Source: Coptis chinensis (lineage: Eukaryota > Streptophyta > Magnoliopsida > Ranunculales > Ranunculaceae). From it: a stretch of DNA of 64,000 nucleotides. The stretch's first letter is position 1. Every line of letters starts with the position of its first letter. Where the stretch lies: positions 91,971,501-92,035,500 of the forward strand of contig CM027381.1 in assembly GCA_015680905.1 (NCBI GenBank), given 5' to 3'. Below are positions 7,905 through 58,151 of the stretch, in pieces. The notes under the pieces are model-generated. The model was not told where the DNA came from, made no database searches, and saw nothing but the letters and a program-made list of their open reading frames with translations. Made by a program: the position numbers and the translations under genes.

Positions 7905-8130
7905 GGTTGTTTTTAATTTTAGTCGTGGGTTTTTCTTTTTAGGAACAGTCGTGGGTTTTTTAGGCGGGTTTCCGTTCTAAGTGGGAGACATGTATCGCAG
8001 TTTTTTTCTCCCTTTTTTTAGTAATTCCTCTCTCTCCTCGATTTTTTTCGTGAGTAAAATAGGGTACTTAAAATTTGCTGAGGTGGACACCCTCAGAGAC
8101 CAGGAAAAGGGACTGCTATTATATATATAA
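7905..8130 (-). mobile_element. Helitron-like 5' terminal region (element A)
   Basis: Read on the minus strand from 8130, the sequence begins with a TA run followed by ATAGCAGTCCCTTTTCC, then GGTGTCCACCTCAGC and AATTTTAAGTACCCTAT. The same roughly 220 bp recurs at 17935-18160, and the first 60-90 bp recur before 14797, 15688 and 21215. A conserved 5' end with divergent interiors is typical of non-autonomous Helitrons. The 3' end of this copy could not be located on its left side. Confidence 0.55.
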
Positions 8131-8214
8131 CTAGTTTTCAAACCCGTCCTACAAACGGGTGCTGTTATATTATAGTGATCACTCATTCAATTTTTTTGCA
8201 AAGTGTGAAAACCC

Positions 8215-9610
8215 ATAAAAAAGAAACAACCCAGGTTGCCGATTTCCCGTTAATTAATTATTCCTTAAGCACTTGCTTTGAGTTTTCGATTTCTTGTTAA
8301 TTATTTTTTGAGGTTAGTTCGATGTTGTTGCATTCAGTTTTCGATTTCCCATTAATTTTTCTTGGAGATTAGTTTGTTGCATTTGTATCCTATTTCGAAA
8401 TCCCGTTAATTATTATTTTATATTAGTTTGATGTATTTGCATTCATTTTCCGATTTCTCATTAATTATTCTTTAATGTTAATTCAATGTAATTACATCTA
8501 GTTTCCGATTTTGCCGTTAAGTATTCTTTGAAGTTATAGTTCAATATAGTTACATCTAGTTTCTAATTTTCCGTTAATTATTCTTTGAGGTTAGTTCTAT
8601 GTAGTTGTATCAAAAATTTGCCGTTAATTATTATTCAATGTTAATTCAATGATTTGCATCAAGTTTCTAATTTCTCGTTAATTATTCTTTGAAGTTAGTT
8701 CAATGTAGTTACATCCAATTTCCGATTTTCAGTTAATTATTCTTTGAAGTTTGTTCAATGTAGTTATATCTAATTTCCGATTTTTCGTTAATTATTTTTT
8801 GAGGTTAGTTCGTTTGAAGCATTTGCATTTATTTTCTTATTTTCTATTAATTATTCTTTGAAGTTTGTTCTATGTAGTTGCATCCAAAATTTCCCGTTCA
8901 ATGTGTATGTAGTTACATCCAGTTTTCAATTTTTCATTAATTATTCTTTGAGGTTAGTTTGATGCATTCACATTAAGTTTCCAATTTCTCGTTAAGGTTA
9001 GTTCAATGCATTTGCATTGCGAGTTTCTGATTTTTCGTTAATTATTCTTTGAAATTAGTTCAATATAGTTGCATCGAGTTTCTCATTTCCCATTAATTAT
9101 TCTTTGAGGTTAGTTCAATGCTTTTGCATCCAGTTGTCGATTTCCCGTTAATTATTTTTTGAAGTTAGTTCAATGCATTTGCGTCTAATTTCTTATTTTC
9201 CGTTAATTTTTCTTTGAAGTTAGTTCAATGTATTTTCATCTAGTTTTCGATTTTTTTGTTAGTTATTCTTTGAGGTTAGTTTGATGCGTTCACATCAAGT
9301 TTCCAATTTCGTTGAGGTTAGTTCAATGCATTTGCATTCATGAAGTTTCGATTTTTTTAGTTAATTATTCTTTGAAATTAGTTCAATATAGTTGCATTGA
9401 GTTTCTCATTTCCGTTAATTATTCTTTGAGGTTAGTTCAATGCATTTGCATCCGGTTTGTCGATTTTCCGTTAATTATTTTTGAAGTTAGTTCAATGCAT
9501 TTCGTCTAATTTCTTATTTTACATTAATTTTTCTTTAAAGTTAGTTCAATGTATTTTCATCTAGTTTTCGATTTTTACATTAGTTATTCTTTGAGGTTAG
9601 TTCAATAATT
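8215..9610. repeat. 1.4-kb minisatellite, about 55-bp unit, with a 322-bp higher-order repeat
   Basis: About two dozen imperfect copies of a unit with the consensus elements TTTCCGATTTTCCGTTAATT, ATTCTTTGAGGTTAGTTCAA and TGCATTTGCATC run in tandem. The last part is organised at a higher level: a block of about six units at 8954-9275 is repeated, in the same unit order and with the same unit-specific variants, at 9276-9596. The array sits immediately inside the hairpin 3' end of Helitron-like element B, a position where tandem repeats are known to accumulate in Helitrons. Confidence 0.9.
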
Positions 9611-12600
9611 GCCTCAAAAAAGACATGGGCGATTGTAAGAACTTCTGAAAGAGAGTAGATAGTAATGACTTTAACTACGATGTTGCAGGTATATTCAAGA
9701 ACATGAGCACTGATATGTGTACTGTGTAGTACCTTAATCCATCAAGATTGTTCCAATGTCCCATTTGCCAAAGAACTCAAGAACTCCTCTTCATGGTTTA
9801 GTATTTTAAAACCATCTACTCAATGTAATTCTTATTAGTACCATTAGAACGTAACACACATGTCTAATGAACGTAATTCTTTTGGCTTGCTACGTATATA
9901 GTTGATGATCAGTTGATTGAAGTACCCCAACCATTTTAAAAGAAAATGCAATTATATTATTAAGGTGTATTGGGTTTTCAAATTGGTTTGGGCCTTTCAA
10001 TTATTTTAGTTGTCAAGACCTTTTTCGTTGAAAAACGCATTATTTGTGTAAAAATGCACAAATTTGTGACTGGGAGTTGCTACATTAATTAGCACATACG
10101 TACGTTAAATCAAATAAACAACTGCAAAATACATATTTAGTGAGGATCAAATTATATTTTCCATTGAACCATAGATAAACTCGACGTTCCTTCGACACTA
10201 ACTATAAGCACCAAAAACGAAAATCATTATAAGTGGGAAATCTGGAAAGAATATCTCCACTATTTTTCAGAAGGCTGCAAAGACAATTCGCATTCATTGA
10301 ATCCGGCATCATAGCTGCACAAATGTGTCCAATAGTAATTCGAGATGCCAAAATGACGCCATAATCTAAATAGACTTAAACATAGAAAGACATCAATACA
10401 ACCAAATGAAATACAAAAAATATGAGAAAGAGAACACATAAATAGTCTTTCCTGGTTTCAAAAGTGAGGACGGTACCAAAAAGGGGTCACATTGTAAGAG
10501 CAACCGCCAAAGTATGCCCTCAATAGAGTACACAACATTGTATACGATCTTAACTTTCCCATAAACCCCATAAGAAGACCCTAATCACACATCCAATGTC
10601 GGTCATATTTGTAAATCGATTCCTTGAGGAAACTTAATCTTGAAGTAGGTAATTGCCTGTTTTAACACCGTTAAAGAGAGTTAGTACAAAACGTAATAAA
10701 TATTGAAGAGAATAAAAATTGAATATTTAAAATAAGTGAAACAAAGACAAAAAACAATCTTATTCACCTTTATATTCTCCTCATTGAATTCTTCCTCTCA
10801 TGGGTTCAAAAAAGGAATAACTTGCAATGAGTAATACATAAGTAGAAATAGGAGCAATGCCGTGCACAACTATGAAGAAAAAGATAATTACTGTACATAT
10901 TAAGATGGATTAGCCCATGCAAGAAAAATCATAAGCGGACAACAAAAACCGGCAAGAAGTTGAAGTAGTACCTGAACTCCAGTGGGGAGGTTGAAGGTTC
11001 AACCCATCTCAATCTGGACTCGAACAAAAGTAAGGTTCTTTTGGTTCAAACGATCCTCGGAAGGGTTCATTGGACGCATGCCCCTGTCCGCCATTTGGAA
11101 AGTTGTGAGGCGTTTTTTCTTTTAGTATATAACAATGAACAATAATGAAGTCGACTCAAACATATATTTAAGTAATTAAGCTTGGTCACCAATAAGAGGA
11201 ATCATATTGTACTGGATGCTAGAATAAAAAAAAGGTAGGAAAGATGTAGCTACTCTATAATTGCATTTTATACTTAGACTATGCTTAAATAGAGGTCTTA
11301 AAGAAAGTCTCATACTCTTTGTACCTTTTTTTGAGCACCTTAGCAGATCATGTGCATTGTTGCATATTGTCAAGCGAAAATTTTGATGCGCTTTAATCTA
11401 TTTGATATAGTTTCATGATCAGTATTAACTTGTGTCCTTACTCTTCTACCTCATGTGACATCATCTTCTAATAAAAATATTTCCAAGCTTTCCTGGTATT
11501 TCGTTACAACAAATTCCCAACTGCATACTAAGAAATAACCCCTTCTACAAATTAAATTCAAACCCATAGAGAAGTCATATTTACACCATTTTATCTTTTA
11601 TTCTATTAGGAAAACAATAATTTAAAACAATTAAAATTGGTTTACACCATTTAATCGTTTAGTTAGTAGTTTCAAGTTTGAAAATGGAACGGCTCAGCGC
11701 GACTAAAATAGGAAATCAGCAGCCGTAAAGGAGTAGGAAAACTGGATCCAAGTCAATTCATTTTACGTGGTCAAGACCATTCACCTATTCTTTTCCACCT
11801 GTTTTATCGAAGATTTTATTTTAATACTAACCAAACACTCTATGACCACCATAATTAGCGTAGTACACAAAGGTTTAGTCATCAGGGTCACTACCAACAA
11901 TCTTTCCAATAAACCAAGTAGAAGCAATTTTATTTCCTAGAAGAATTGTCAAAAAGCTTCGAACGGTGACTTCTTCTCTAAGTATGATCCTATAATTAAT
12001 TGGGAGACCCAATAACATAAGACGCTGAAATAACCCTTAAAAAAATCCCCTTTGGTACTATCCAATATAAACATCCTCACCGTGAGACTATGACCCCTCT
12101 ACAGATGAAGTCCTTCTAAATATCATATCCATGTTATAGGCTAATGACTACTCATCTGGTGTTAGCTATTACATAATCTTTCAATAATTTCAAGTTATAG
12201 AAGAACCATGAGAAAAAGGAAATAAGATCGATTGAAAGGTACATGGTATGGTATGAAATTTGAGATAAAAGCAGTGTACCTAGATAATTAGTACTTGAGT
12301 TGCCTGCTTGCATATTAGATTTTCTCGATCTCTTGGTGGAATGTCGCACTACTTGATACACTTAGCAGAAAAGGTGACAATCTAAACATTTTGAAATCCA
12401 GCACACTCAATTGACCATTTGCTCATTACAGTGACCACAATTTCCATAGCAGATCCCCTAAATGACCTACATCATAGAGATCACTATTATCTACTAACAA
12501 ATGTTAAATTTCTTAATAATTTGAAAGAACAAAAGAAGACTAATAATACATGATTAAGCATAACTTGCCTACTGTATAAGCATATTCTACTATAGATTAT

Positions 12601-14780
12601 GGTGCCTAGATTTTCTTCAATTGCCAAGCTAGAAATAAAGGGTTTGCTTTTATGTATTTTTTTGTGTCTCAGATCACGGTTTGCAATATCTTTTGCGGCT
12701 TGGATTCAAGTGAAAAAAAATCAAATGCATCAAATGCAAAAAACATACCCACTACCCATCATAGAAACCGATTTAGAAACAACAAACTAATTGTAAACCG
12801 TGGTAGAATATTAGGTGTTTCTCTTGTGAATATTGGATCATTTAAATATAGTAATAAACTACAGTTGGACACTTTATCATGTCAAATATAACTTTCAAGT
12901 AAATATATGTTTATGTTAAAATGAAGTCTCTTGCATAATTAATTAAACTCAAACAAAATAAACATTTGAACACTTTTGTTTTAACCCAACAACTTTGAAT
13001 CCCATAAAAAATTGTTTTTTCCACTTTGTTTTTCTTCACTTAAGATTGGGTTTGAAGGTTATACAATCTCAAACATTTTTTTTTTTTTTTTTTGAAATTT
13101 AAAAGAATTTGGAAAAGGTGTGTAAACCCATTACCGGATCTGACAATCGACAAAGTTATTTGTGTCTTGGATGGCACCTTTGCAATCACTACTTTATGAA
13201 AATCAAATCTGTACCATTCGCCAGTGTTGGAAAGTCGTTGGTGGTGTTTGGAACAATGGTGGCTATATTGGGTTCTAACTAACTGTTATTTGGTTTGGAA
13301 GAATATAAGTGAGTCAACTCACTGATTTATTTGTTTTTTCTTATTGAAAAATAGAAACTTGTGTAAAATGTCAACATGTAATTTATTTTGTCACGTAATA
13401 GGTCAGGACGCTAGCAATTCTCTTCTTTTAATATTTTTTTTTATGGTACAACAATGACTATTGATTTACAACTGGAGCAAAGTTGAGAAAACAGGTAATT
13501 AAGAAAATCAACTTACCTTACGTTGTAATGATGCAAGAATGTGGTCTACTCGACTTTAGCTTCAAAGGTAGCAGTTTCAGACTCGCTATCAACTGCATCA
13601 CATATAACATTGTGGCTGCATCATAGCATAGAAAGGTAAACATTGACGTTTAGTAGCAACAAATAACGGGACGTGAACAATAAGAAGAGGGCAGCATTAA
13701 GTGTCATAATGGATGCTAACTTTGAGCCCATAAATTTTATTTGGTTATATCTAGCATTTCTAGTGCTGAAAGGAAACAGGTGGTATTGATGTATCATACT
13801 CTTATCCATAACCCACATGCTAGTTCAAAGTAATAGCATAAGTAATTCCACGGGATAAATTTTATATGTACTGTGGACCTCGACATTAATGCTCTTAAAC
13901 TAAACTCACACTCCAATTCAAGGTAAAGAAAGGGTGCAATGAATCCAACACATGATGCCTTGTTGCATCCACATTGATAAGTTGAATTGCCTCCAAAATA
14001 TTTGCATCGTTCATCATATGTACTAAAAAGGAAGTGAAGATGCATGGTAAGTTTTGTTAAAAGAATTTGGTGAGCTTCCACTTTGTAGCACCCAACGATA
14101 CTACTCACAATGACACAATATGATTCCATTCAAGAACTGATATAGAACTATATCGTTACAAAAAAACTGATATAGTAATATGTGGAATTCGCCCCATGAG
14201 AAATTTCTAAACCAATTGTAATATATTGGGTGAAACGCTTAACAATTTTGTGAGTAGTTGTTATCAAGTTGTATTTCATTGTATTCTTCGTCCATAATAG
14301 CTTGCATGTTTTGTTGATGTTGTTATGTTAGAATAACCCGCTACATAACCAATTATGAAGGTAATCGGAGGTTTCAGATAGAGGCAAAAAATAGTTATTT
14401 ACTGATTAATGAACCTGCCTTCAAAAGTCACTATGTTAAAATCGATTGTGTATAATGAAGTGTTCCACCAATTGATATACCAAAACTTAGATATCTATTA
14501 CTTGACTTAGTAGTATTGATATAAACAATGCACAACTAATATCCACAATACCATTACTCCTAATACTATTTGTCATATATATAAGCTAAGCAAATGCATC
14601 CATAGCTTACAGATTATCTTCACAACCCGCTTATTTGTTATTATGAAGTGATTGAGGGGCAAAATGGGAAGCCAAGGGGATATTTTTGTCTAAGTACATA
14701 AAAGATCGAGTTGGGGAGAAATACCAAATCCAACACAAAATTACGCACATAGACGTGGATAGTTTCAGAGAGCTTGAAAA
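9611..14780. other. Interior of Helitron-like element B, no named gene
   Basis: AT-rich sequence with scattered exon-like open segments (for example on the minus strand near 10970-11090 and 13800-14120) that I cannot tie to any family. A poly-T run lies at 13077-13093. No tRNA, rRNA or complete gene is apparent. Confidence 0.4.
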
Positions 14781-14811
14781 GGGACTGCTATTATATAATT
14801 TTCTGGTGGAC

Positions 14812-15085
14812 GGTTTCATTCTGGTGATCTTGCGGTGAAACACCCTGATGGCTATATAGAGATTAAGGATAGGTCCAAGGACATCATTATATTCGGGGGT
14901 GAAAATATCAGTAGCTTGGAGGTAGAGAGCTTTTTGTATCAACACCCTCCTTGTGTTTGAAGCATCAGTGGTGGCAAGACCAGATGAGCAGTGGGGAGAG
15001 CCACCTTGTGCCTTTGTCACATTGAAGCTAGAAGTAGATGGATCAAAGTCTAGTTCTCTGGCCGAAGATATCATGAAGTTTACAG
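14812..15085 (+). pseudogene. Fragment of an acyl-activating enzyme (AMP-binding, CoA-ligase family)
   Basis: The plus strand encodes [20 protein letters not shown] followed by [20 protein letters not shown]. These are the hinge and C-terminal motifs of plant peroxisomal-type acyl-activating enzymes (AAE/4CL-like, adenylate-forming), in which the D-x-R-S-K-D segment is the hinge between the two domains. After a frameshift near 14950 the next segment reads [19 protein letters not shown] and continues to AEDIMKF. Only about 90 codons of a normally 550-residue enzyme are present, with no start and no adenylation core. The piece starts immediately after a Helitron-like 5' motif, so it was probably carried in by a transposon. 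It is not functional. Confidence 0.85.
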
Positions 15086-15537
15086 TTAAACCAACCCAAA
15101 ATTAGATCTGACTTCTTCTTCTCCACCAAGTGAAATCGACCCTTTCTCCTCCAGCAACCCAACTCCCCTACTCTCCAACACTTTTTTTTTTAACTCTATT
15201 TTTTTGTCTTCACCATCATGACTACTGAAGAAGTTAATAACCCACCTTCTTTTCGTCATTACTCTGAGTTAAGTAAATATTTTTTCTTAGTAAGTAAACA
15301 AACCTTTTTAGTGTAGGTTTCTCAAGCAATCAATAAAAACTGCAAAAGAGCAGAAGATCTCCCCTGAAAAATTCCTCACCAAACCCCTAGAGTCTAATGA
15401 GGTTGAAGAGAGAAATTAATGACTTCTCTAGGTGAGTGATTTGTTGATGCAGTGGCCAAAGTGTGGAATTTAACAACACTTTGAAGTGCAAAAGTAACCG
15501 CTAAGATTGAAAGAGTTCGAGTGGGGGGTTTAACCGA

Positions 15538-15539
<2 letters not shown>

Positions 15540-15568
<29 letters not shown>
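15540..15568. repeat. Poly-T tract (about 29 nt)
   Basis: An uninterrupted T run. The minus-strand ORF running through it starts with a lysine run and is an artefact. Confidence 0.9.
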
Positions 15569-15599
15569 CGACACTCGAGGCTCAAAAGGAGTTAGTAAT

Positions 15600-15688
15600 A
15601 TTCTTGTTTTTTCTCTCTTAATTTTTGTGAGTAAAAATCTGACGTGGACACCCTAAGAGAGCTTAAAAGGGGACTGCTATGATATATA
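15600..15688 (-). mobile_element. Helitron-like 5' terminus, abutting the next element
   Basis: Minus-strand ATAGCAGTCCCCTTTTAAGC followed by GGTGTCCACGTCAG matches the 5' ends at 8130, 14797, 18160 and 21215. It directly touches the hairpin 3' end of the element to its right, giving a head-to-tail junction. Confidence 0.55.
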
Positions 15689-18165
15689 CTTGAAATGCCC
15701 GACTATGTTCGGACATAGCATGCACTTCTTAAAAAAAATTCAAGCTACTCGGCATTTGTAATGCATACTAACGTGAAAGTATGTACATAGTGTGGGTGTG
15801 GGTTGGCACATCGTTAACTCAAAATGAGTGACCCTGCCTTAACTCTACAATCAATAACAATTAGCACAATACTTAAAGTGCTCATGGAACACTCTAAACC
15901 ATATATTTATGTGTCCCTCGATGCTCTATAGTCTATACTAAATTAGAAATCACGTCCGAGTAATACTTGTATTAAGTAAAAGCATATAAATAAAGATTAA
16001 TAAGAAAAATAAATAAATAATTTTATCTTGATTAATTTGCAAACAAAAAACAAAGTAAATTGGGTAGAACAATCATTTGAGAAAAACTATATATATGCTA
16101 AGAACATGGCAAATGAGAAAAACATTAAGGTAGCACTATTAAATGAACTTCTTAACAAATAAAGAGAAAAAATATATATATATATAAGGTAGCACAATTA
16201 AGGGGGTGTGTAATATGCAACTAAGAGGAGTCCTCCGAGATCAATTAATTAATATGCAATTGTATATTAAGTTGGTTACTTCAAAAGATTCCCAATTGAC
16301 TACACAATACAATTCACCTGATGGCTAATCCATTCTAAAACAAATAGTATACCTAATTTACTTATTAAAAAAACACACACACACAAATTAAGTATTGAAA
16401 AAAGTGTCAAATTATTTTTTCCAAAACAGTGATGGACTCTAGATAAAGAAGTTTCTCCCACTTTCTCTCCCCATAAATCACATAGCCTTTTATGTTAGCG
16501 TCCATCAATTTATCTACAAATTTAATAATAGCAAAAAAAAAAGAAAAATTAAAATTAGAGATTCGTTACCTTGAAAGACAAACACAGTACCAATATCATT
16601 TTGGCAGCTCAACATGAGTAAAGAATTGTTTTTCATATACCCCCATCATTGGTTCCAAGTCAATACAAACAAAAAATCCTTTGGAAAAATAATAACAGTT
16701 GTTTGGAAAAATAATTACCTGAAGTGAACCATATGAAATATCTTCTGGAATCCGTGAAACTTCCTCCTTACTCTTGCACAATAGAGAAAGATTTGTGTCT
16801 TCAACTGCAACCATGGCAAAACAACACCATCCATTTCAACAGGAAGAGAAGTAGATCTTGTAGAGCACTCAGCAGCTTCACTTTCCCCATAATGCAATAT
16901 AAGGTCTGTGTCTTCAACATTTGAAAGGAAATCATCTATGTATCTCTTTGCATCCTCGGTCAAACACTTGGACATCCAACCTCTACCATTATTCTGGTAA
17001 AGAAGGAAAAATACACCAGGCGTATCAGGAAAAAAAGAACCAAGTGAAGTAACGTTTACCACAGTTCAAATCCTTAAGTCTTGCTAGCAGCTCATAGTTC
17101 AGGATGGAAGATTGCCGGTTTGAAATCAGTAACTTTAAAAGGCTCATAAAATAATTGGGCAAAAAAAGAGCCAATCAACAATGGTCGAACTAAAAAAATT
17201 TCATGTTAGATTTGTATCTATTAAATTCGGAATTAATGAGGATATATACTTGATATTGGAAGTCTATCAAAACCAAACATACATTTTCTTTAGGTAAAAT
17301 CAGAATCAGTACTTGACTGCTTGTTTTTGTAGTAAAAATGCGTATATAGGGATCAAAAATTCATTTGAATACTCCGTAGCCCACAAAATGCGTGTTTTTA
17401 TTTGTATGTGGTAACAAACGAAAGAGTTAATTCCAGTATAATTGAATCAGTTCTATGGAGTTGGATGTTTGTTCTTCAAAACACAAAATTCTCCAATCAG
17501 CTAGTTTTTCTTCGAAGAAATACCAATGCCCTAAGCTTCAAACATAACTAATAATTAAAATCAATCTAGATGTGTTATGAGAGGCCTACCTTTCTACCAA
17601 GTGACGACTTTTCTTGAACAGCAGGATTTTTTCTCTCATAAGTGAAGACCTTGAATATCATGCACAGGAGTCCCACATCAGAAATGTTACACTTATCAAC
17701 AGTCACGGGGATGAAATGTGATGGGATGGGAAGATGAAGTGTTGTTTGGGTTTTGGAAAGAGGTGCGGTGGGTTTTAGAGTGTTTTGTTTGCCGTGAATT
17801 CTTTAAAAAAAAAAAAAAGATTCTCTGTTAGATGTTGTTTCTCTTTTTTTTTTTTTATCTGCCAATTCATTGTTTCCTCTCTTTTTTTCTCCTGATTGCT
17901 CATGACTATGTACTCATCAGAGAATCTCAAGGGTTGTTTTTCATTTTAGTCGTGGGTTTTTCTTTTTTTTTTGGGAACAGTCGTGGGTTTTTTAGGCGGG
18001 TTTCCATTCTAAGTGGGAGACATCTATCTTAGTTTTTTTCTCCATTTTTTTCGTAATCCCTCTCCTGATTTCTCATGAGTAAAATAGGGTACTTAAAATT
18101 TGCCGACATGGACACCCTCATAGCGCAGCAAAAGGGATGCTATTATATATATATATATATATAAA
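15689..18165 (-). mobile_element. Helitron-like element C, non-autonomous
   Basis: The minus-strand 3' end carries a perfect hairpin, CTATGT-TCGG-ACATAG at 15703-15718, followed by GCATTTCAAG, which resembles the usual GCAT...CTAG Helitron end except that CTAG is read as CAAG. The 5' end at about 18160 has the shared TAATAGCATCCC motif and is nearly identical over roughly 220 bp to the end at 8130. The interior holds minus-strand exon-like segments. Each terminus is well supported. That they belong to one 2.5-kb element is inferred. Confidence 0.5.
16594..17062 (-). pseudogene. Exon-like segments of an unidentified gene inside Helitron-like element C
   Basis: The minus strand has an open segment at 16715-17062 containing WMSKCLTEDAKRYIDDFLSN, then VEDTDLILHYGESEAAE. 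A second segment follows at 16596-16814. A further exon-like piece at about 17590-17720 reads HFIPVTVDKCNISDVGLLCM and ends at a GT donor. Composition and splice-like borders suggest captured host exons. I do not recognise the protein, and no complete gene can be traced. Confidence 0.35.
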
Positions 18166-18439
18166 GAAGTATATTTTTTAGTATTGATTAAAAATGACTA
18201 AATAAAGGACCAATCGGCCTAACACATAGGAGAGAAGATACCAAAATGAAGGTCAATCAAACAATCACTAATTCACTATAGTCCCAGATAGATATTCATT
18301 TGAATACTTCGTGCAAGAGGTGAAAAACTAAATACAGGTAAGCAAGTTCAATTCTCTTGGAATCCAAAGTAGAATTTCAGAATCTAAGATATGAATCCAC
18401 TATAATAGATACTACATCGTAATAGGCAGTTAAGACATG

Positions 18440-18760
18440 ACATACCTAGAACTTTTGAAGCAGTGAGACGTTGGGTGGGATCGATCTGAGCATTCCGTTG
18501 ATCAAGTCCTTGGCGGATGCAGATATGTGATCGGATGGAAACCGCAAATTGGCAGCCCCGATAGAATCGAAAATCCTCAACTTAGTCTTCCCCAAAATGG
18601 TGGCATCCCACGAGAAGAATGTAAAGAATCAGCCTCCGGACATCGGTAGCTTGGTTGTAGCCCCCGGCCTAATACCTCGGGGGCTATATATAATGGACTT
18701 CCAACCGCCCCCTGTAGACTTTTTTCCTCGTTCATAAAAAAAACCAAATTGTTTACACCC
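18440..18760 (-). pseudogene. Fragment of a CDPK/PEPKR1-like protein kinase
   Basis: The minus strand shows the kinase activation segment and APE motif, SLQGAVGSPLYIAPEVLGRG. In shifted frames it continues with YNQATDV, LILYILLVG, MPPFWG and then IFDSIGAANLRFPSD and SASAKDLINGML, which are lobe-C motifs of Ca-dependent-kinase-type enzymes such as PEPKR1. At least two frameshifts occur between GRG and the end, and the ATP-binding lobe is missing. It is a dead piece, probably captured by the surrounding Helitron-like element. Confidence 0.8.
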
Positions 18761-18840
18761 CCACTACGCCTATTATAAGTTGGGTTGATTCGATTCCCCG
18801 CTTGCATAGTATTGTGATTAAACTTGATATAAAGTGAGCT

Positions 18841-20490
18841 ATGCTAAAGGGTTTTTGCAGCTATCCCCGCTCTTACTCTAAGCATACTCAAAGCGTCTTT
18901 GCCACTGTACTTGTCTATCTTGCTCTTGTTTTAAGTGGAACCCAAAGTGCTGCTGTACATGGCCATCTTGCTCATGTTCTAGTTGTTGTCGGTTTTATCG
19001 AAAAACAAAACGGAGGAAAGTTCCTTTGGGTAATAGATAATGAAAACTACGTGTAGTTCTTATTTGTAGTTAAAAAGACCAATATGAAGCACACAAATCA
19101 GCAAAAATATATATGAGTTTTGATGATTTACAATCACTTAAGATAAATAAAAGATCCAAGCCTTGTAACTTATAAAACAATTGTCCGGCTTTAACTCAAG
19201 GAAATCACTAAAGGCATTAAGCATACAGTTGACAATTGCAAAAAAAAAATGGCACCCATATAATTTCCTCCATCCATTGTTTGTGTTATGTTTCATCTCG
19301 ATGCGTAGGGAAGATAGTCATTGCGATGAAAGCGACAACAATGAGCTGAAATCGGAAAAGAACATGCAATTATGTTAGGATGAACATTTAATAATATAGT
19401 TTCTTGTTCAAAGAAAATTTGAACTTCGTGAGGTCGAGCCGATCGAGGTATGTTCTAATGGTTGTTAGAACAATGAATTATATTGGAACTTTCAAGTAAC
19501 TCGGCTTCTACTTCCTTATAACTACTGAGGTATTAAAATGGGCTCACGCAGCCTGACCACCTTTACATTACTTTCCTCTAACAAAGTCCACATAATCTTG
19601 AGCATGCATAGTGCCTATCGTCCAACTTTTTCCTTCCACAAATAGAGATCCTGTATAGAATGTAGAAATAAATATTTCAAAGCAAACAATTGGTAAAAGA
19701 AAAAAGGGTTATATTTCTTACGGTAAGCACTCCACTCTGTCAATCCAAAGCCAATAGCCATTCCAATCCGACGGACGGCAATTATGATAAATAAACTTTC
19801 TCCGGCGGGTTCTTTGCAATAGTCCGACAATTTCAAGCTCTTTGAGGAAAGCATGTCTTTGCCGAAATATGGAAGTACCAAACCAGTTTTCTGAAAATCT
19901 TTTTCCTAAATCGCCATTGACGATTGGAGGACCTCAACTAATCAATCTCTCCTTCCTCTACATCCGTTAAGGGTCACGAAAACTATTGGGCTCACATTCT
20001 TCCTCCTCCTATTCCTCCTCTTTCATGTATAAGCCAAGTTGCTCCAAGGGGTTAGTACATCCTTGGAGCTTAAAGCCACCCATGCCATCTTCCTCGAAAG
20101 TGAATTGGACTTGTTTCATCTACGAGCAGGTTATCTTTTTCGTCCAACTTTGATTTGTGTCGGTGGTAACTTTATTTTGGACTTGAAATCACAGATTTTG
20201 ACTTAAAATTCTTTCAAAAGAGTAATTGAGTTACATTTGACAAACTTAAATGAGTCTTCCGTGGATTAGGAAAAGATGGTAATTGTGTAGTGTTATGTCT
20301 CACGTATCTCTGTTTTGAGCTTGCTCATATTTCATGTCTTCATTGTGTTGAAAGAGTTTGCTAAACAACAATAATTTCATCGGGCGCTAACTTTCGAACA
20401 CAATTTGGACTTAATTTAGTTAAATTTCTTTGTCGGAATGAGAACTACGTCGATATGAGCTAATGATGCATTACAAATTTTAGGTACTCA
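18841..20490. other. Interior of element D without a named gene
   Basis: Minus-strand exon-like bits occur, for example at 19728-19905 (containing NCRPSDWNGYWLWIDRVECL in one frame) and near 20040-20110 (EEDGMGGFKLQGCTNPLEQL). They cannot be assigned to a family. Otherwise nothing is recognised. Confidence 0.35.
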
Positions 20491-20491
20491 C

Positions 20492-21020
20492 TTGCATCAT
20501 TTTGAAGATATACACAGAGGAATTCCTCTTCATCAGCAACCATTCCCTTGAAAAGCAAGCTTTCAAAAGCTCTTTTTTGTTGACACCATACTCGGAAGTT
20601 ATCGAAGCAGCAGGGTGGCTCTTTCTCTTGTCAAAAGGGGTGCTGAGTTCTTGCCCTTGCTTGCGGCCAACATGGAACGACTGGAATGCATCTGCGAATT
20701 CCTGGGCTGAAACATAGGAATAGGGTTCGTCTTTATTGGCCCAAGATCGGTGTCGATCTTTTCTTGATGTTACCTGTATGAGAAGAAATTACAGGTCAGA
20801 TCTTAACATTCTACTTAGTTAATTTGACATAATTGACAACTAAAAATGCGTACAAAATTTATAATTCAAATGATAGGAATAGAATGTAATTGGTTGAGTT
20901 AGGAAATCTTACTTCTTGCAAGAAGTCTGCAACCTCTTTTCTTCGGGACATCTAAAACCCTTGGCTTCAAAGAACTTCGAGCACGTTCTCCCCGAGGACC
21001 TTGGTAGATGATCTGTCCCT
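20492..21020 (-). pseudogene. Fragment of a PDR-type ABCG transporter (two exons)
   Basis: Two minus-strand exons with proper AG/GT borders are visible. The first (20913-21020) carries the end of the first nucleotide-binding domain, GQIIYQGPR, then, after a one-base insertion and in-frame stops, EVADFLQE. The second (20492-20773) is an unbroken 94-codon exon beginning VTSRKDRHRSWANKDEPY, with SFHVGRKQGQELSTPFDKRK and YGVNKKELLKACFSREWLLM, the linker before the first transmembrane domain of full-size ABCG (PDR) exporters. These proteins are normally about 1450 residues, so this is under 10 percent of one. It lies directly inside the 5' end of Helitron-like element D. Confidence 0.88.
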
Positions 21021-21222
21021 CTGAAAGTAGAATAATATTCAGAGGCGGAGAAAGAAGGTTTTCGGAGACTCGTGGGGTTTAGACTCTTATTTGTGGGGGA
21101 CTCGTCGTATAATTGAACTTTTTCCCTCTCCTGATTTCTCGTGAGTAAAAAGGGTACTTAAAATTTGCTGACGTGGACACCCTCACAGACCAGGAAAAGG
21201 GACTGCTATTATATATATATAA

Positions 21223-34966: not shown

Positions 34967-37900
34967 ATGACATCAGTTTGTTCATCGTCAAATTCCCAAG
35001 TAGAAACCCTAGCCCTAACAACCTTAATCCCAAATCTCCCAAACGATATCTCCTCCCTAATTCTCTCATTCATTCCATTTTCTCACCATTCTCGTCTTAA
35101 ACCCACGTGCAAATCATGGAAACATTTCTTCTCCTCAAAACCACCAAATTTCTCTCTCCGACAAAAATACTCCCATCTTTTATGTTTATTCCCACAGGAC
35201 CCCTCAATCTCACCACCTTTTTTATTCGATCCTAAAAACCTCGCTTGGCGTCCAATTCCACCTATGCCATGCAACTCACAGCTCTACGGATTAACTAACT
35301 TCATTTCCATTGCTTTCAATTATCATTTGTACGTCATTGGTGGCTCCTTGTTCGACGCCAGGTCGTTTCCTATGGACCGCCCATCCGCGTCTGCCTCCAT
35401 TTATAGGTTTGATATGTTTACTAATCACTGGGTCTGTTTATCGCCTATGTTATCGGCTCGGGGGAGTTTTGCGTGTGCCGCCGTCAATGGGGGGATTATT
35501 GTCGCTGGTGGCGGCTCTAGACATGCTATGTTCGGGGCAGCTGGAAGTAGGATGAGTTCAGTGGAGAGATATGATGTGGACAAAAATGAGTGGGTGGAGA
35601 TGGATGGGTTACCCAGGTTTCGAGCTGGGTGTGTTGGGTTTTTAATTGGGAATGGTGAGGAGATGGAGTTTTGGGTTATGGGTGGGTATGGTGAGTCGAG
35701 GACAGTTTCGGGGGTTTTTCCAGTCGATGAGTATTATAGAGATGGTGTGGTTTTGGAGTTGAAGAGTGGAGGGAAGTGGAGAGAGATTGAGAATATGTGG
35801 GAAGAAGGAGAGAGGAGGAGATTGGGTAATGTAGTTGTTCTTGATGGGGAAGACGGTGAGGAGCCTGGGATTTTTATGCTTGATGGTGCTGATATTTTCA
35901 GGTAACTCCTTGAAAATTGTGCTTGTTAAATGTCACAGTGATCTAATAACTGTGTCGTTTGAAATCCCCTCTGCTGTCATTTGTTTAGTTATTTGGTTTT
36001 CCTATGAATGCTAGTTACATTATGGATTGATTTATTTGACGGAAGTAATTATACTTTGCTAAATGTCAAAGTTTATTGGATAATTGTCTTGTTTTTAGAG
36101 ATTAATTAGATGTCGTGATTGCTTTGAGATTTCTATCTTTGGTTATGTTTATGATGCATATATGTCTATACCAAAGTTGTCAAACTCGATGAACTTTTTG
36201 AAAAATTATTTTGTTTATCAATCTCATATGTTTTACAGTCCAATTTATGCTAGTTAAGTCAAGGACTAATCCATTTGACTTTAAGCACAGAACAGTAAAA
36301 TTCTAAGTTGTTTATATAGCAGCTGCTCCATTGTACTGCTTGGTCTGCATGAGAAAAAGTTGCACACCTTTTGTCACCTTTGTTGAACAGCTTAGTCATC
36401 TTATGGGCCATCTATTCTTACATTTGACTTATGGATGTCTCTATACGGTTTTAGCTATAAAACTCAAACACATAGCATTCGTTTCTTTTCAGTTTACAAT
36501 TTTATTGTATTATTTTAGGAAGGAATCTTATAGTTCTCACTTCATAGTTGGTTGACGTAGTTTATAGTTTTATAGTTATACGACATACTCTATCTTATAA
36601 ACTTGGCAAAACAGGAATTTCATAGATACTGGTTAAAATTGACTTACTGCATTCCCCAATGTTCAAAGGAGTTCAAGCTGAAACCTGACTTTCATAAGTC
36701 CTAATACACCATGAGGTCCTTGAAGCGAAGGGACTCAATGCAAGATACTTAGGTTTATACTTAGTATATCGTAATCCATCCTCAATTACTGATCTTTAAA
36801 GATTTGGTGATCCTTGAGTCGAGTTCATATAATAGTTATAAGACGCCATTATCTATTTGCCTTTGCTTAATGGTGATTTTGTTTGTACTGTATCGATCTT
36901 TAAAGATGTGCTGATCTTTATTGAGTCCGCTTATTATAACAATTTTATGATGCCAAATCATCTATATATCGTTGCTTAGTGGTGACTTTGTTTGGACTGT
37001 GTGCTTTTGAATTAATGTGTGGTAGCTAATGTCTTGATAAGATAAAGTTTAAGGAAATAGTAATCAATTTATCCATCTGGTTTAGTTTTATAATGTCACA
37101 TGATAGGTTTTTTCCTTGGATGGACGGGCTTGCACCTTGTGCCTCCGTGAGGCATACGCCTTGCTTCGTTTTAGTAAACCGTCGCTAAATAGAACTTTTA
37201 AATAATGGCTTTGATGAGCATATGCATGTTAGGTATTAAACATTTCAAAATCATGGACCTTTTCCTTTTGTTGTTGGGTGTATGCTTTGGTAGTGTAAAC
37301 TGTGTAATGTGGGTATTGGTCAGTTTGGGTTCCCTGCTAGAGTTATGTGGAACTGCTGGGGAGAAAGGGGAGGAGTGGAAGAACGAGGATGGTTACTGTG
37401 GTATCCTCTCTTTTTTCCTCGTCAATCTATTAATCTTCCAGATGATGATGATGATTGGGGATCTGTTTCTGCTGAAGAAGAAGCTAATGATCTTGTGAAT
37501 GATGTGGACTCGAAGAAGAATGTGTACCTTTATAGTTTAGAAAATTTACATAATTGGATTTCTTCCTCGGAGGGATTAATGGTTGATTCTAATCTGATGA
37601 AGGTTGGAGAATATTTGGTGATTTCAGTGGGTGCAGGATCTTCTTTTTGCTCGGTTGGGTGCAGGGTCCCTGAATCGGCTGATATGTTATTATGTTTAAT
37701 GACATTAATCAGTGTTGCCAAGAAGTACGGGTTCGCAGACAATCTGTCAATGTTGTGGTATCTGACACTAGGGATGGCTCAGTTTTCAATGAATTCTGAT
37801 ATTGTTTGTGGGAATACGAGGGGTTCGAAGAGTAAAGAAAAGGCTGGGTGATTGAGGAGAGTGGTAGGTATATTTAAAACTTTAATTGTGATGTTGCAAG

Positions 37901-42894: not shown

Positions 42895-42902
42895 TATAAA
42901 TA
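42895..42902 (+). promoter_or_regulatory. TATA box of the CTNIP/SCREW peptide gene
   Basis: TATAAATA stands 44 bp upstream of the ATG at 42946, preceding a CACATACACATA repeat that would form the short 5' UTR. Position and sequence fit a plant core promoter. Confidence 0.6.
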
Positions 42903-42945: not shown

Positions 42946-43164
42946 ATGGGGTACAAAAGCATGGGTTTAGTACTTGTATTTTGCGTTCTTTTACTACTAT
43001 TCCATCAATACGAAGCAAGTAGAGTTTTGCGTGAAGAAGGTTCGATCAAGAAAGCAGAATTTCTATTAAAATCTATTCTACGGGGTCCTGTCCCTTCTTC
43101 TGGATCTTCTGGGTGCACCAACATTCCAGGTGTCAGTGGACCTAGTTGTCCACCATTCCCTTAA
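42946..43164 (+). CDS. CTNIP/SCREW-type secreted signalling peptide precursor
   Basis: Single-exon ORF of 72 residues. Residues 1-24 form a signal peptide (MGYKSMGLVLVFCVLLLLFH, cleavage likely after QYEA). A variable, charged middle (SRVLREEGSIKKAEFL) is followed by the conserved C-terminus RGPVPSSGSSG and CTNIPGVSGPSCPPFP with Cys57 and Cys68. The C-T-N-I-P core followed by a second cysteine defines the CTNIP (SCREW) phytocytokines, which in Arabidopsis are perceived by the receptor kinase HSL3 (NUT), recruit BAK1-type coreceptors and affect defence and water loss. The length fits the family (about 70-80). A TATA box lies at 42895. No sibling copy is seen nearby. Assignment rests on the motif, not on an alignment. 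Confidence 0.85.
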   Translation: MGYKSMGLVLVFCVLLLLFHQYEASRVLREEGSIKKAEFLLKSILRGPVPSSGSSGCTNIPGVSGPSCPPFP

Positions 43165-56753: not shown

Positions 56754-57149
56754 TTTGGCGCCGCCTGTGGGGACGACAAGATAGAAATGGCACCAAAAAG
56801 AAGGTGGGTAGGCCCCCGAAAGAAGAGGACGGAGCAAACGCCGGAGGGGCGGTGGAAGAAGGAGAGGGAAGGGAGGAGGAAAGAAGAGGAGCTCATGCGA
56901 GAAGAAATTGGGAGGTCGAGAGAGGAAAAATGAGGAGCCGAGGAGAGAAAAAAGAGAGAAGGGAGGAAGAACCGGGGATGAGACGTAAGAGGAAGCGAGA
57001 GAGAAAAGGCGGAGGGGAGGAGCAAGGACCGACCTTGGGGACAATCCGGTGACCGGATTAACAATGGAGCAGTCCAAAGAAATGATTAACAAATGACCGA
57101 CAGAGAGGCTTAATCTTCACCGCACAAGGGCCCAAACGGTGCGGCGGTC

Positions 57150-58151
57150 GTGGTGGTGGCAGGTTTGAATCGCAACCCCCTGGCGGACGCGATATGGACG
57201 TCCGAGGTACCAAAACGCTTCAACCAGCCGAGGTTCGAGAGGTATGATGGCACGGGGGACCCGGCAGATCACATCCATCACTTCAGACAGCAGATGCCTC
57301 TCTGGCAAGAGGCGAGGTATGATGGTCTGCGGTGCATGATGTTCCCGGCTAGCCTTAAGGGTGGGGCCTCCGACTGGTACTATCGATTACCCTCAAAGAG
57401 CATAACGAATTTCCAAGAGCTAGAACAGGCATTTGTGGACCATTTTATACATCAGAAGAGGAGGGTGGTAGACATCGCGGCCCTATTCAATGTTAGACAA
57501 AGATCCGCGGAGTCGGTCAGAGAGTATCTGTGTCGCTTTAAGGCCGAGACCTTAAAGGTGGAGAATCTGGACGAGAGAACGGCGGTAATAGCGTTTGAAA
57601 GGGGGCTGCGACCCGGAACAGCGGTCCATCAGTCGGTGGCTAAGAACGAGATTGCGAACTTGCACGAATTATACCCGCGGGTAGAAAAGTACATCAGGTA
57701 CGAAGATACCATGCAGAAGGAATCGAAGAGGGGAGGCAAGACAGTATCAGCAGTGGAGAAAGAGAGGGAACGCGGTAAGACTGGGGGAAAAGACCGGGGC
57801 AAAGAGAGATACCGCGGACAATCGTCGAGGCCGGAAAGAGGGAGGGAAGTAGTTCGAAGAGAACAGAGGGAGAGGAAGCCATACCACGAATTGGAGACCG
57901 TCCCGCTGACGAGACCGCTGAGTGAGATATTGCCGTTGATAAAAAATGTGCAAGGATATGAAGGGCCGCGAACCATTCCGGCTGAAATGCCTAACAAGCC
58001 ATACTGCGACTATCACCAGGTGCGCAATCACGAGACCAACGATTGTTATGCCTTAAAATGGTTAGTCCAGAGATTGGTGGAGAAGGGGATGCTGAGGGAA
58101 TTTGTGGGTGAACCTCAAAATAGGGGAGCAGGGCGCAGCTGGGCCGCTTAA
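57150..58151 (+). mobile_element. gag region of the Ty3/gypsy element
   Basis: A retrotransposon gag domain is clear: RFERYDGTGDPADHIHHFRQ, FPASLKGGASDWYYRLPSKS and LEQAFVDHFIHQKR. A basic, RE/KR-rich stretch follows, then a CCHC-like remnant near the end (YCDYHQVRNHETNDCYALK). The fossil's best-preserved part. Confidence 0.88.

Follow-up and report, generated by a model that had tools for sequence, protein, structure and literature searches.

We report a CTNIP/SCREW phytocytokine precursor gene in Coptis chinensis, encoded with high probability by a 72-residue open reading frame at 42946..43164 on the forward strand of the window, the 64,000-nucleotide stretch of DNA analysed here (C5:91971501-92035500). 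In our joint reading, to which we attach high confidence, the gene would specify a secreted precursor whose released C-terminus binds an HSL3-type receptor and recruits BAK1/SERK in stress signalling. What the sequence shows directly is the open reading frame, its similarity to the family, its paralogues and, elsewhere in the genome, receptors of the HSL3 type; secretion, processing, the need for the cysteines, binding and signalling are carried over from Arabidopsis.

Layout of the precursor

The frame runs uninterrupted from an ATG, the first Met within it, to a TAA stop and translates as MGYKSMGLVLVFCVLLLLFHQYEASRVLREEGSIKKAEFLLKSILRGPVPSSGSSGCTNIPGVSGPSCPPFP, with the start codon in the context TCTAACATGGG. 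The features of the gene are the following.

42895-42901, forward strand: TATA box TATAAAT, a consensus match and candidate element 51 nt 5′ of the ATG
42946..43164, forward strand: CTNIP/SCREW-family precursor open reading frame, 72 residues, assigned to the family through its match to PDB 9w1s_C and 9wum_B
42946..43017, forward strand: signal-peptide-like N-terminus, residues 1-24, from hydropathy only, with putative cleavage near A24
43018..43083, forward strand: variable pro-region, residues 25-46, from a five-member alignment
43084..43161, forward strand: presumed bioactive C-terminus, residues 47-72, GPVPSSGSSGCTNIPGVSGPSCPPFP, of which residue 47 lines up with the start of the chain 9wum_B
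43111..43128, forward strand: GCTNIP motif, read from the sequence
43114..43116, forward strand: first conserved cysteine codon, C57, invariant in five aligned members
43147..43149, forward strand: second conserved cysteine codon, C68, invariant in five aligned members

The original prediction of a 72-residue frame preceded by a TATA box is borne out at these positions, and its secreted product agrees with the hydrophobic N-terminus, as judged by hydropathy only. The hydrophobic core of this N-terminus spans residues 7-17 (Kyte-Doolittle mean 3.32), and A24 and R26 are invariant in the five aligned members. The TATA box lies at −51 in an identical copy of the gene upstream on C5 as well, and at −45 in a copy on C2. 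The 1 kb upstream of the open reading frame contains TTGAC[CT] and ACGTG once each, a count that gives no sign of a rich stress promoter. The C-terminal part follows the layout GPVP...GCTNIP...SGPSC, in which C57 and C68 are separated by 10 residues and C68 is followed by the four residues PPFP.

Evidence for CTNIP/SCREW membership

A phmmer search of the 72-residue protein against all PDB chains of at least 20 residues returned six matches, the best two being the 43-residue chain 9w1s_C (E 2.1e-4) and the 23-residue chain 9wum_B (E 0.039). Both chains are deposited as ‘Transmembrane protein’, and chain A of both entries is AT5G25930, which passages of PMC9191895 identify as HSL3. From their sequence and their partner receptor AT5G25930, we infer that both peptides are CTNIPs. 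When the C-terminal 36 residues of the window protein (residues 37-72) were shuffled and compared with a 26-residue stretch of 9w1s_C, none of 20,000 shuffles reached the observed 13 ungapped identities, the best giving 10. The precursor is shorter than 150 residues, carries the CTNIP motif near its C-terminus and has a cysteine spacing of 10, within the filter of 9-11 residues described in the text of PMC9191895; it is similar to solved peptides, and HSL3-type receptors, recognised by best match, are found in the same genome. No Pfam family covers the open reading frame; PsbL (E 0.27) scores 11.7 bits, far short of its cut-off of 33. The hydrophobic N-terminus, motif and cysteine spacing, PDB matches, paralogues and HSL3-type receptors thus agree with the CTNIP/SCREW assignment proposed in the original prediction.

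Could this be a chance open frame that happens to contain a chance GCTNIP? A degenerate GCTNIP pattern matches the 935.6-Mb genome 23 times (~0.0016 matches per 64 kb), against 11 for the reversed pattern. Three of the 23 matches are the window gene and its two copies, and 13 of the other 20 have one common 17-base sequence. GCTNIP alone is therefore not rare genome-wide, and the open reading frame stands above chance through the PDB matches, the shuffle test and the divergent paralogues. Eight of the 20 other occurrences were examined (seven of differing sequence and one of the 13 alike), and in none of these eight does a cysteine follow the motif before the stop codon. Since the window frame resembles both solved peptides and divergent paralogues, we regard a chance origin as having a negligible probability.

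The protein might instead be a different secreted peptide of the proline-rich SGP group (IDA, PIP, CLE, CEP) that came to look like a CTNIP through convergent evolution and signals via a different receptor. A PSGP core is described as common to CLE, CTNIP, PIP, CEP and IDA in passages of PMC11331138. The similarity found here, however, includes GCTNIP itself, and both solved peptides matched, in a search of PDB chains of at least 20 residues and hence longer than the short IDA, PIP and CLE ligands, are deposited with HSL3, so that membership of this other group is very improbable and CTNIP/SCREW membership remains the preferred reading.

Family loci in the genome

Searching the 935.6-Mb genome with the window protein brought up 17 matches at E<=10. 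Six of them are convincing family loci: the window gene, an identical copy at C5:91964720 (49.7 kb upstream, all 219 bases the same), a copy on C2 (C2:46280086) with 93% identity and, on C4, three divergent members with E-values of 4.0e-9, 6.0e-4 and 0.0036. The search for CTNIP paralogues suggested in the original prediction has thus yielded five further loci, on C5, C2 and, three times, C4. The three divergent CTNIP-like genes, L004, L005 and L006, lie within 0.2 Mb of each other at C4:92.18-92.38 Mb. We discarded the remaining 11 of the 17 matches (E 0.3-7.7, four with internal stops) as noise; the motif is absent from both of those examined (L007 and L008).

A reciprocal search with L004 recovered, at E<=1, precisely these six loci, and L004 by itself matches 9w1s_C with E 2.9e-5. 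From GPV to the second cysteine, L004 and the window gene have 16 of 22 residues in common, compared with 40% identity overall, which shows constraint on this stretch at a deeper scale. Pfam returned nothing usable for L004 or L005. The furthest paralogues, L005 and L006, add little weight to the family, because no CTNIP peptide appears among the PDB matches of L005 and because the cysteine spacing of L006, at 12 residues, exceeds the 9-11 filter given in the text of PMC9191895.

The original prediction had also viewed the PPFP tail as a possible species-specific feature of the mature ligand. As it stands, this idea finds no support. PPFP occurs only in the three near-identical copies (the C5 pair and the C2 copy), all of which have it, whereas the C4 paralogues of the same genome carry other tails after the second cysteine, of 32 (L004), 31 (L005) and 38 (L006) residues compared with 4 in the window gene; in 9w1s_C the residue after the second cysteine is position 42 of 43. 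As the tail differs among members, PPFP is no special feature of the ligand.

Duplication and divergence of the window gene

The gene lies in a large tandem duplication, in which window positions ~1250-47862 correspond to C5:91924310-91969639 in long pieces that are 95.7-98.9% identical, with interruptions. One such alignment to the upstream copy (L030), over 8,222 columns, has 97.8% identity, 42 mismatches and 46 gap openings. The upstream copy contains an insertion of ~9 kb, and window positions 8130-21123 (~13 kb) have no long match in it. The tandem copy may be a true duplication, or the assembly may have placed two haplotypes one after the other. On C2, too, there are pieces of window 39.5-54.1 kb, in inverted orientation, the longer ones being 89.4-97.1% identical.

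Between the window gene and its C2 copy, 6 of 219 coding bases differ, five of the changes being nonsynonymous (R29C, S33W, L45Q, V63A and S67G, from window to C2) and one synonymous. This corresponds to a dN of 0.031 (164 sites) and a dS of 0.019 (52 sites), with dN/dS ~1.6 over very few sites, and the differences are too few for a claim of positive selection. The surrounding alignment has 54 mismatches in 1,992 columns, the six coding ones included. Because coding differences are no fewer than those in neighbouring DNA, no recent purifying selection is visible between the two copies, and at least one of them may be drifting. In the pro-region, the window sequence has S33 and L45, and the W and Q kept at these sites in the other four aligned sequences are absent from the window copy and its identical twin; 9w1s_C also has Q at the second site. 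As the window sequence alone departs from the other four at residues 33 and 45, and 9w1s_C carries Q, the window copy probably holds the derived state.

These observations raise the alternative that the window gene is a CTNIP copy decaying after a recent duplication, with its frame still intact and function carried by the C2 copy or by the C4 members. The five nonsynonymous changes against one synonymous, at the rate of neighbouring DNA, and the loss of W33 and Q45, which the other aligned sequences retain, speak for such decay. Nonetheless, the frame with its start context is intact, as are the TATA box, the motif and both cysteines; the tandem copy is the same over all 219 bases, and the lost residues precede the stretch that appears to match the active 23 residues of Arabidopsis CTNIP4 (as given in passages of PMC9191895). 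We therefore consider decay unlikely, and retain the reading of a CTNIP/SCREW gene.

Other genes were observed alongside. The duplicated block also holds an F-box/Kelch gene at window 34967-35902 (Pfam Kelch_1 E 3.2e-18, F-box E 1.4e-5), and a retrotransposon gag lies at window 57114-58151 (Pfam Retrotrans_gag E 2.1e-14, while Ty3_capsid stays under its cut-off), with more open frames behind it to about 60250. Elsewhere in the genome, Pfam CMAS has 23 matches, with exons read at nine; 16 of the 23 fall into three clusters (C3:1.25-1.67 Mb, C3:3.38-3.47 Mb and C2:1.70-2.40 Mb), in which some of the exons read resemble coclaurine N-methyltransferases, as would suit a plant that, like Coptis, makes benzylisoquinoline alkaloids. 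An exon at L064 is identical over 68/68 residues to the coclaurine N-methyltransferase of PDB 6gkv, which we take to be from Coptis japonica, a match that itself points to a Coptis genome.

HSL3-type receptors in the same genome

Candidate receptors were sought with a piece of the Arabidopsis HSL3 kinase, scoring 150 of 1,023 candidates, among which at least 74 kinase matches have E<=1e-10. The best 11 stand apart (E<=8.7e-20, 53-71% identity). The twelfth, L020 (E 1.1e-16), is by sequence a fragment of the same type, and the next match (43%) is close behind it in E-value. Seven of these 12 HSL3-type candidate loci were examined with at least 5 kb of upstream DNA. Two of them, L023 (1015 residues) and L027 (1031 residues), which are 59% identical to each other, are complete receptors: in both, the frame runs uninterrupted through ectodomain and kinase, and a GT-AG intron precedes the last exon. 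By best match, without a tree, the ectodomain of L023 is placed first with AT5G25930 (E 1.5e-194), ahead of FLS2 (1.5e-149, in two stretches), HSL1 (2.7e-136) and ‘Receptor-like protein kinase 5’ (5.7e-128); on the same basis, that of L027 is also placed first with AT5G25930 (E 1.2e-183), followed by GSO1 (1.6e-122) and HSL1 (7e-122). In a third locus, L026, which is related to L027, the frame is broken, and the other four of the seven have no ectodomain frame of at least 110 residues. The search for an HSL3 orthologue envisaged in the original prediction thus finds at least two complete HSL3-type receptors by best match, a lower bound because seven of the 12 candidate loci were examined.

The last kinase exon of the L023 type recurs nearly unchanged at L009/L010 (C3), L016 and L019 (C6), and L020 (C7). 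No ectodomain frame of 110 residues is found upstream at L010 (read as L024), the single one of these fragments examined with upstream DNA. Such a dispersed, near-identical exon, lacking an ectodomain frame at L010, may be a mobile or segmental copy of the 3′ end that is spreading. At L029 (C4:9892800-9899500, minus strand), the long frames upstream of an HSL3-type kinase fragment resemble what is presumably a LINE-type reverse transcriptase.

Two ligand types are present in this genome, the short C5/C2 type with GCTNIP and PPFP and the long-tailed C4 type, of which two of three members are without NIP. It is conceivable, if rather doubtful, that the two types pair privately with the two receptors and form two insulated CTNIP channels. 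The presence of two ligand types alongside two receptors makes this genome a natural test of ligand-receptor co-evolution.

Proposed mechanism and family background

By analogy with the Arabidopsis work, we propose that the precursor would be secreted through its signal-peptide-like N-terminus and that its C-terminal part would then be released, roughly as GPVPSSGSSGCTNIPGVSGPSC, either including PPFP or lacking it. The released peptide, whose two cysteines would be required for activity, would bind the ectodomain of an HSL3-type receptor kinase from the same plant. This receptor would in turn recruit a BAK1/SERK co-receptor, the complex leading to calcium, ROS and MAPK responses in stress. 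In Arabidopsis, passages of PMC9191895 report that CTNIPs bind HSL3 with recruitment of BAK1, and that the C-terminal 23-residue region of CTNIP4, CTNIP4(48-70), is sufficient for responses and needs its two cysteines; residues 47-72 of the window protein are likely to resemble this active region. The infection test in the text of PMC9191895 gave no direct evidence for an immunity role of CTNIPs, and the SCREW work (Liu et al. 2022, as cited in PMC9191895) is linked, in passages of PMC13056886, to suppressed stomatal closure and defence.

CTNIPs have been reported in Amborella, in eudicots and in monocots except Poaceae (text of PMC9191895), so a CTNIP in Ranunculales is to be expected. The main text of PMC9191895, whose species list sits in its supplement, contains no Coptis, Aquilegia, Ranuncul- or Papaver-. 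Among the matches listed in our literature searches, there was none for CTNIP or HSL3 in Coptis, Aquilegia or Ranunculales and no paper titled as an HSL3-CTNIP structure, and CTNIP-like sequence strings led only to papers unrelated by title. The window gene is an ordinary, easily missed member of a known family with a known matching receptor type, and it changes no concept. It adds a CTNIP gene, together with ligand paralogues and receptors, in the early-diverging eudicot order Ranunculales; as more than 40% of the CTNIPs identified in PMC9191895 were unannotated, according to its text, such finds fill a known gap.

Comparison with known systems

The window gene and the C4 paralogues L004, L005 and L006 have a common layout of hydrophobic start, A-x-R, GP[VI]P.S, CTxI and second cysteine. 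The cysteine spacing is 10 in both the window gene and L004, compared with 11 in L005 and 12 in L006, and NIP is lost in L005 (CTSIGG) and L006 (CTFIGG). Compared with 9w1s_C, the window gene has GVSGPSC where the solved peptide has RGTPRC and L45 where it has Q, and it ends in the PPFP tail where 9w1s_C has H as its penultimate residue. IDA, PIP, CLE and CEP peptides use different receptors and, to our knowledge, lack the combination of paired cysteines and a CTNIP motif. They are alike with the window gene in being secreted peptides with a PSGP-type core, in the grouping made in passages of PMC11331138. The closest likeness is to Arabidopsis CTNIP1-4, as presented in the text of PMC9191895, and to the 9w1s and 9wum peptides, in the short precursor, the C-terminal GPV..SG..GCTNIP..C and a cysteine spacing within 9-11 residues; as in the Arabidopsis CTNIP system, HSL3-type receptors are present in the Coptis genome too.
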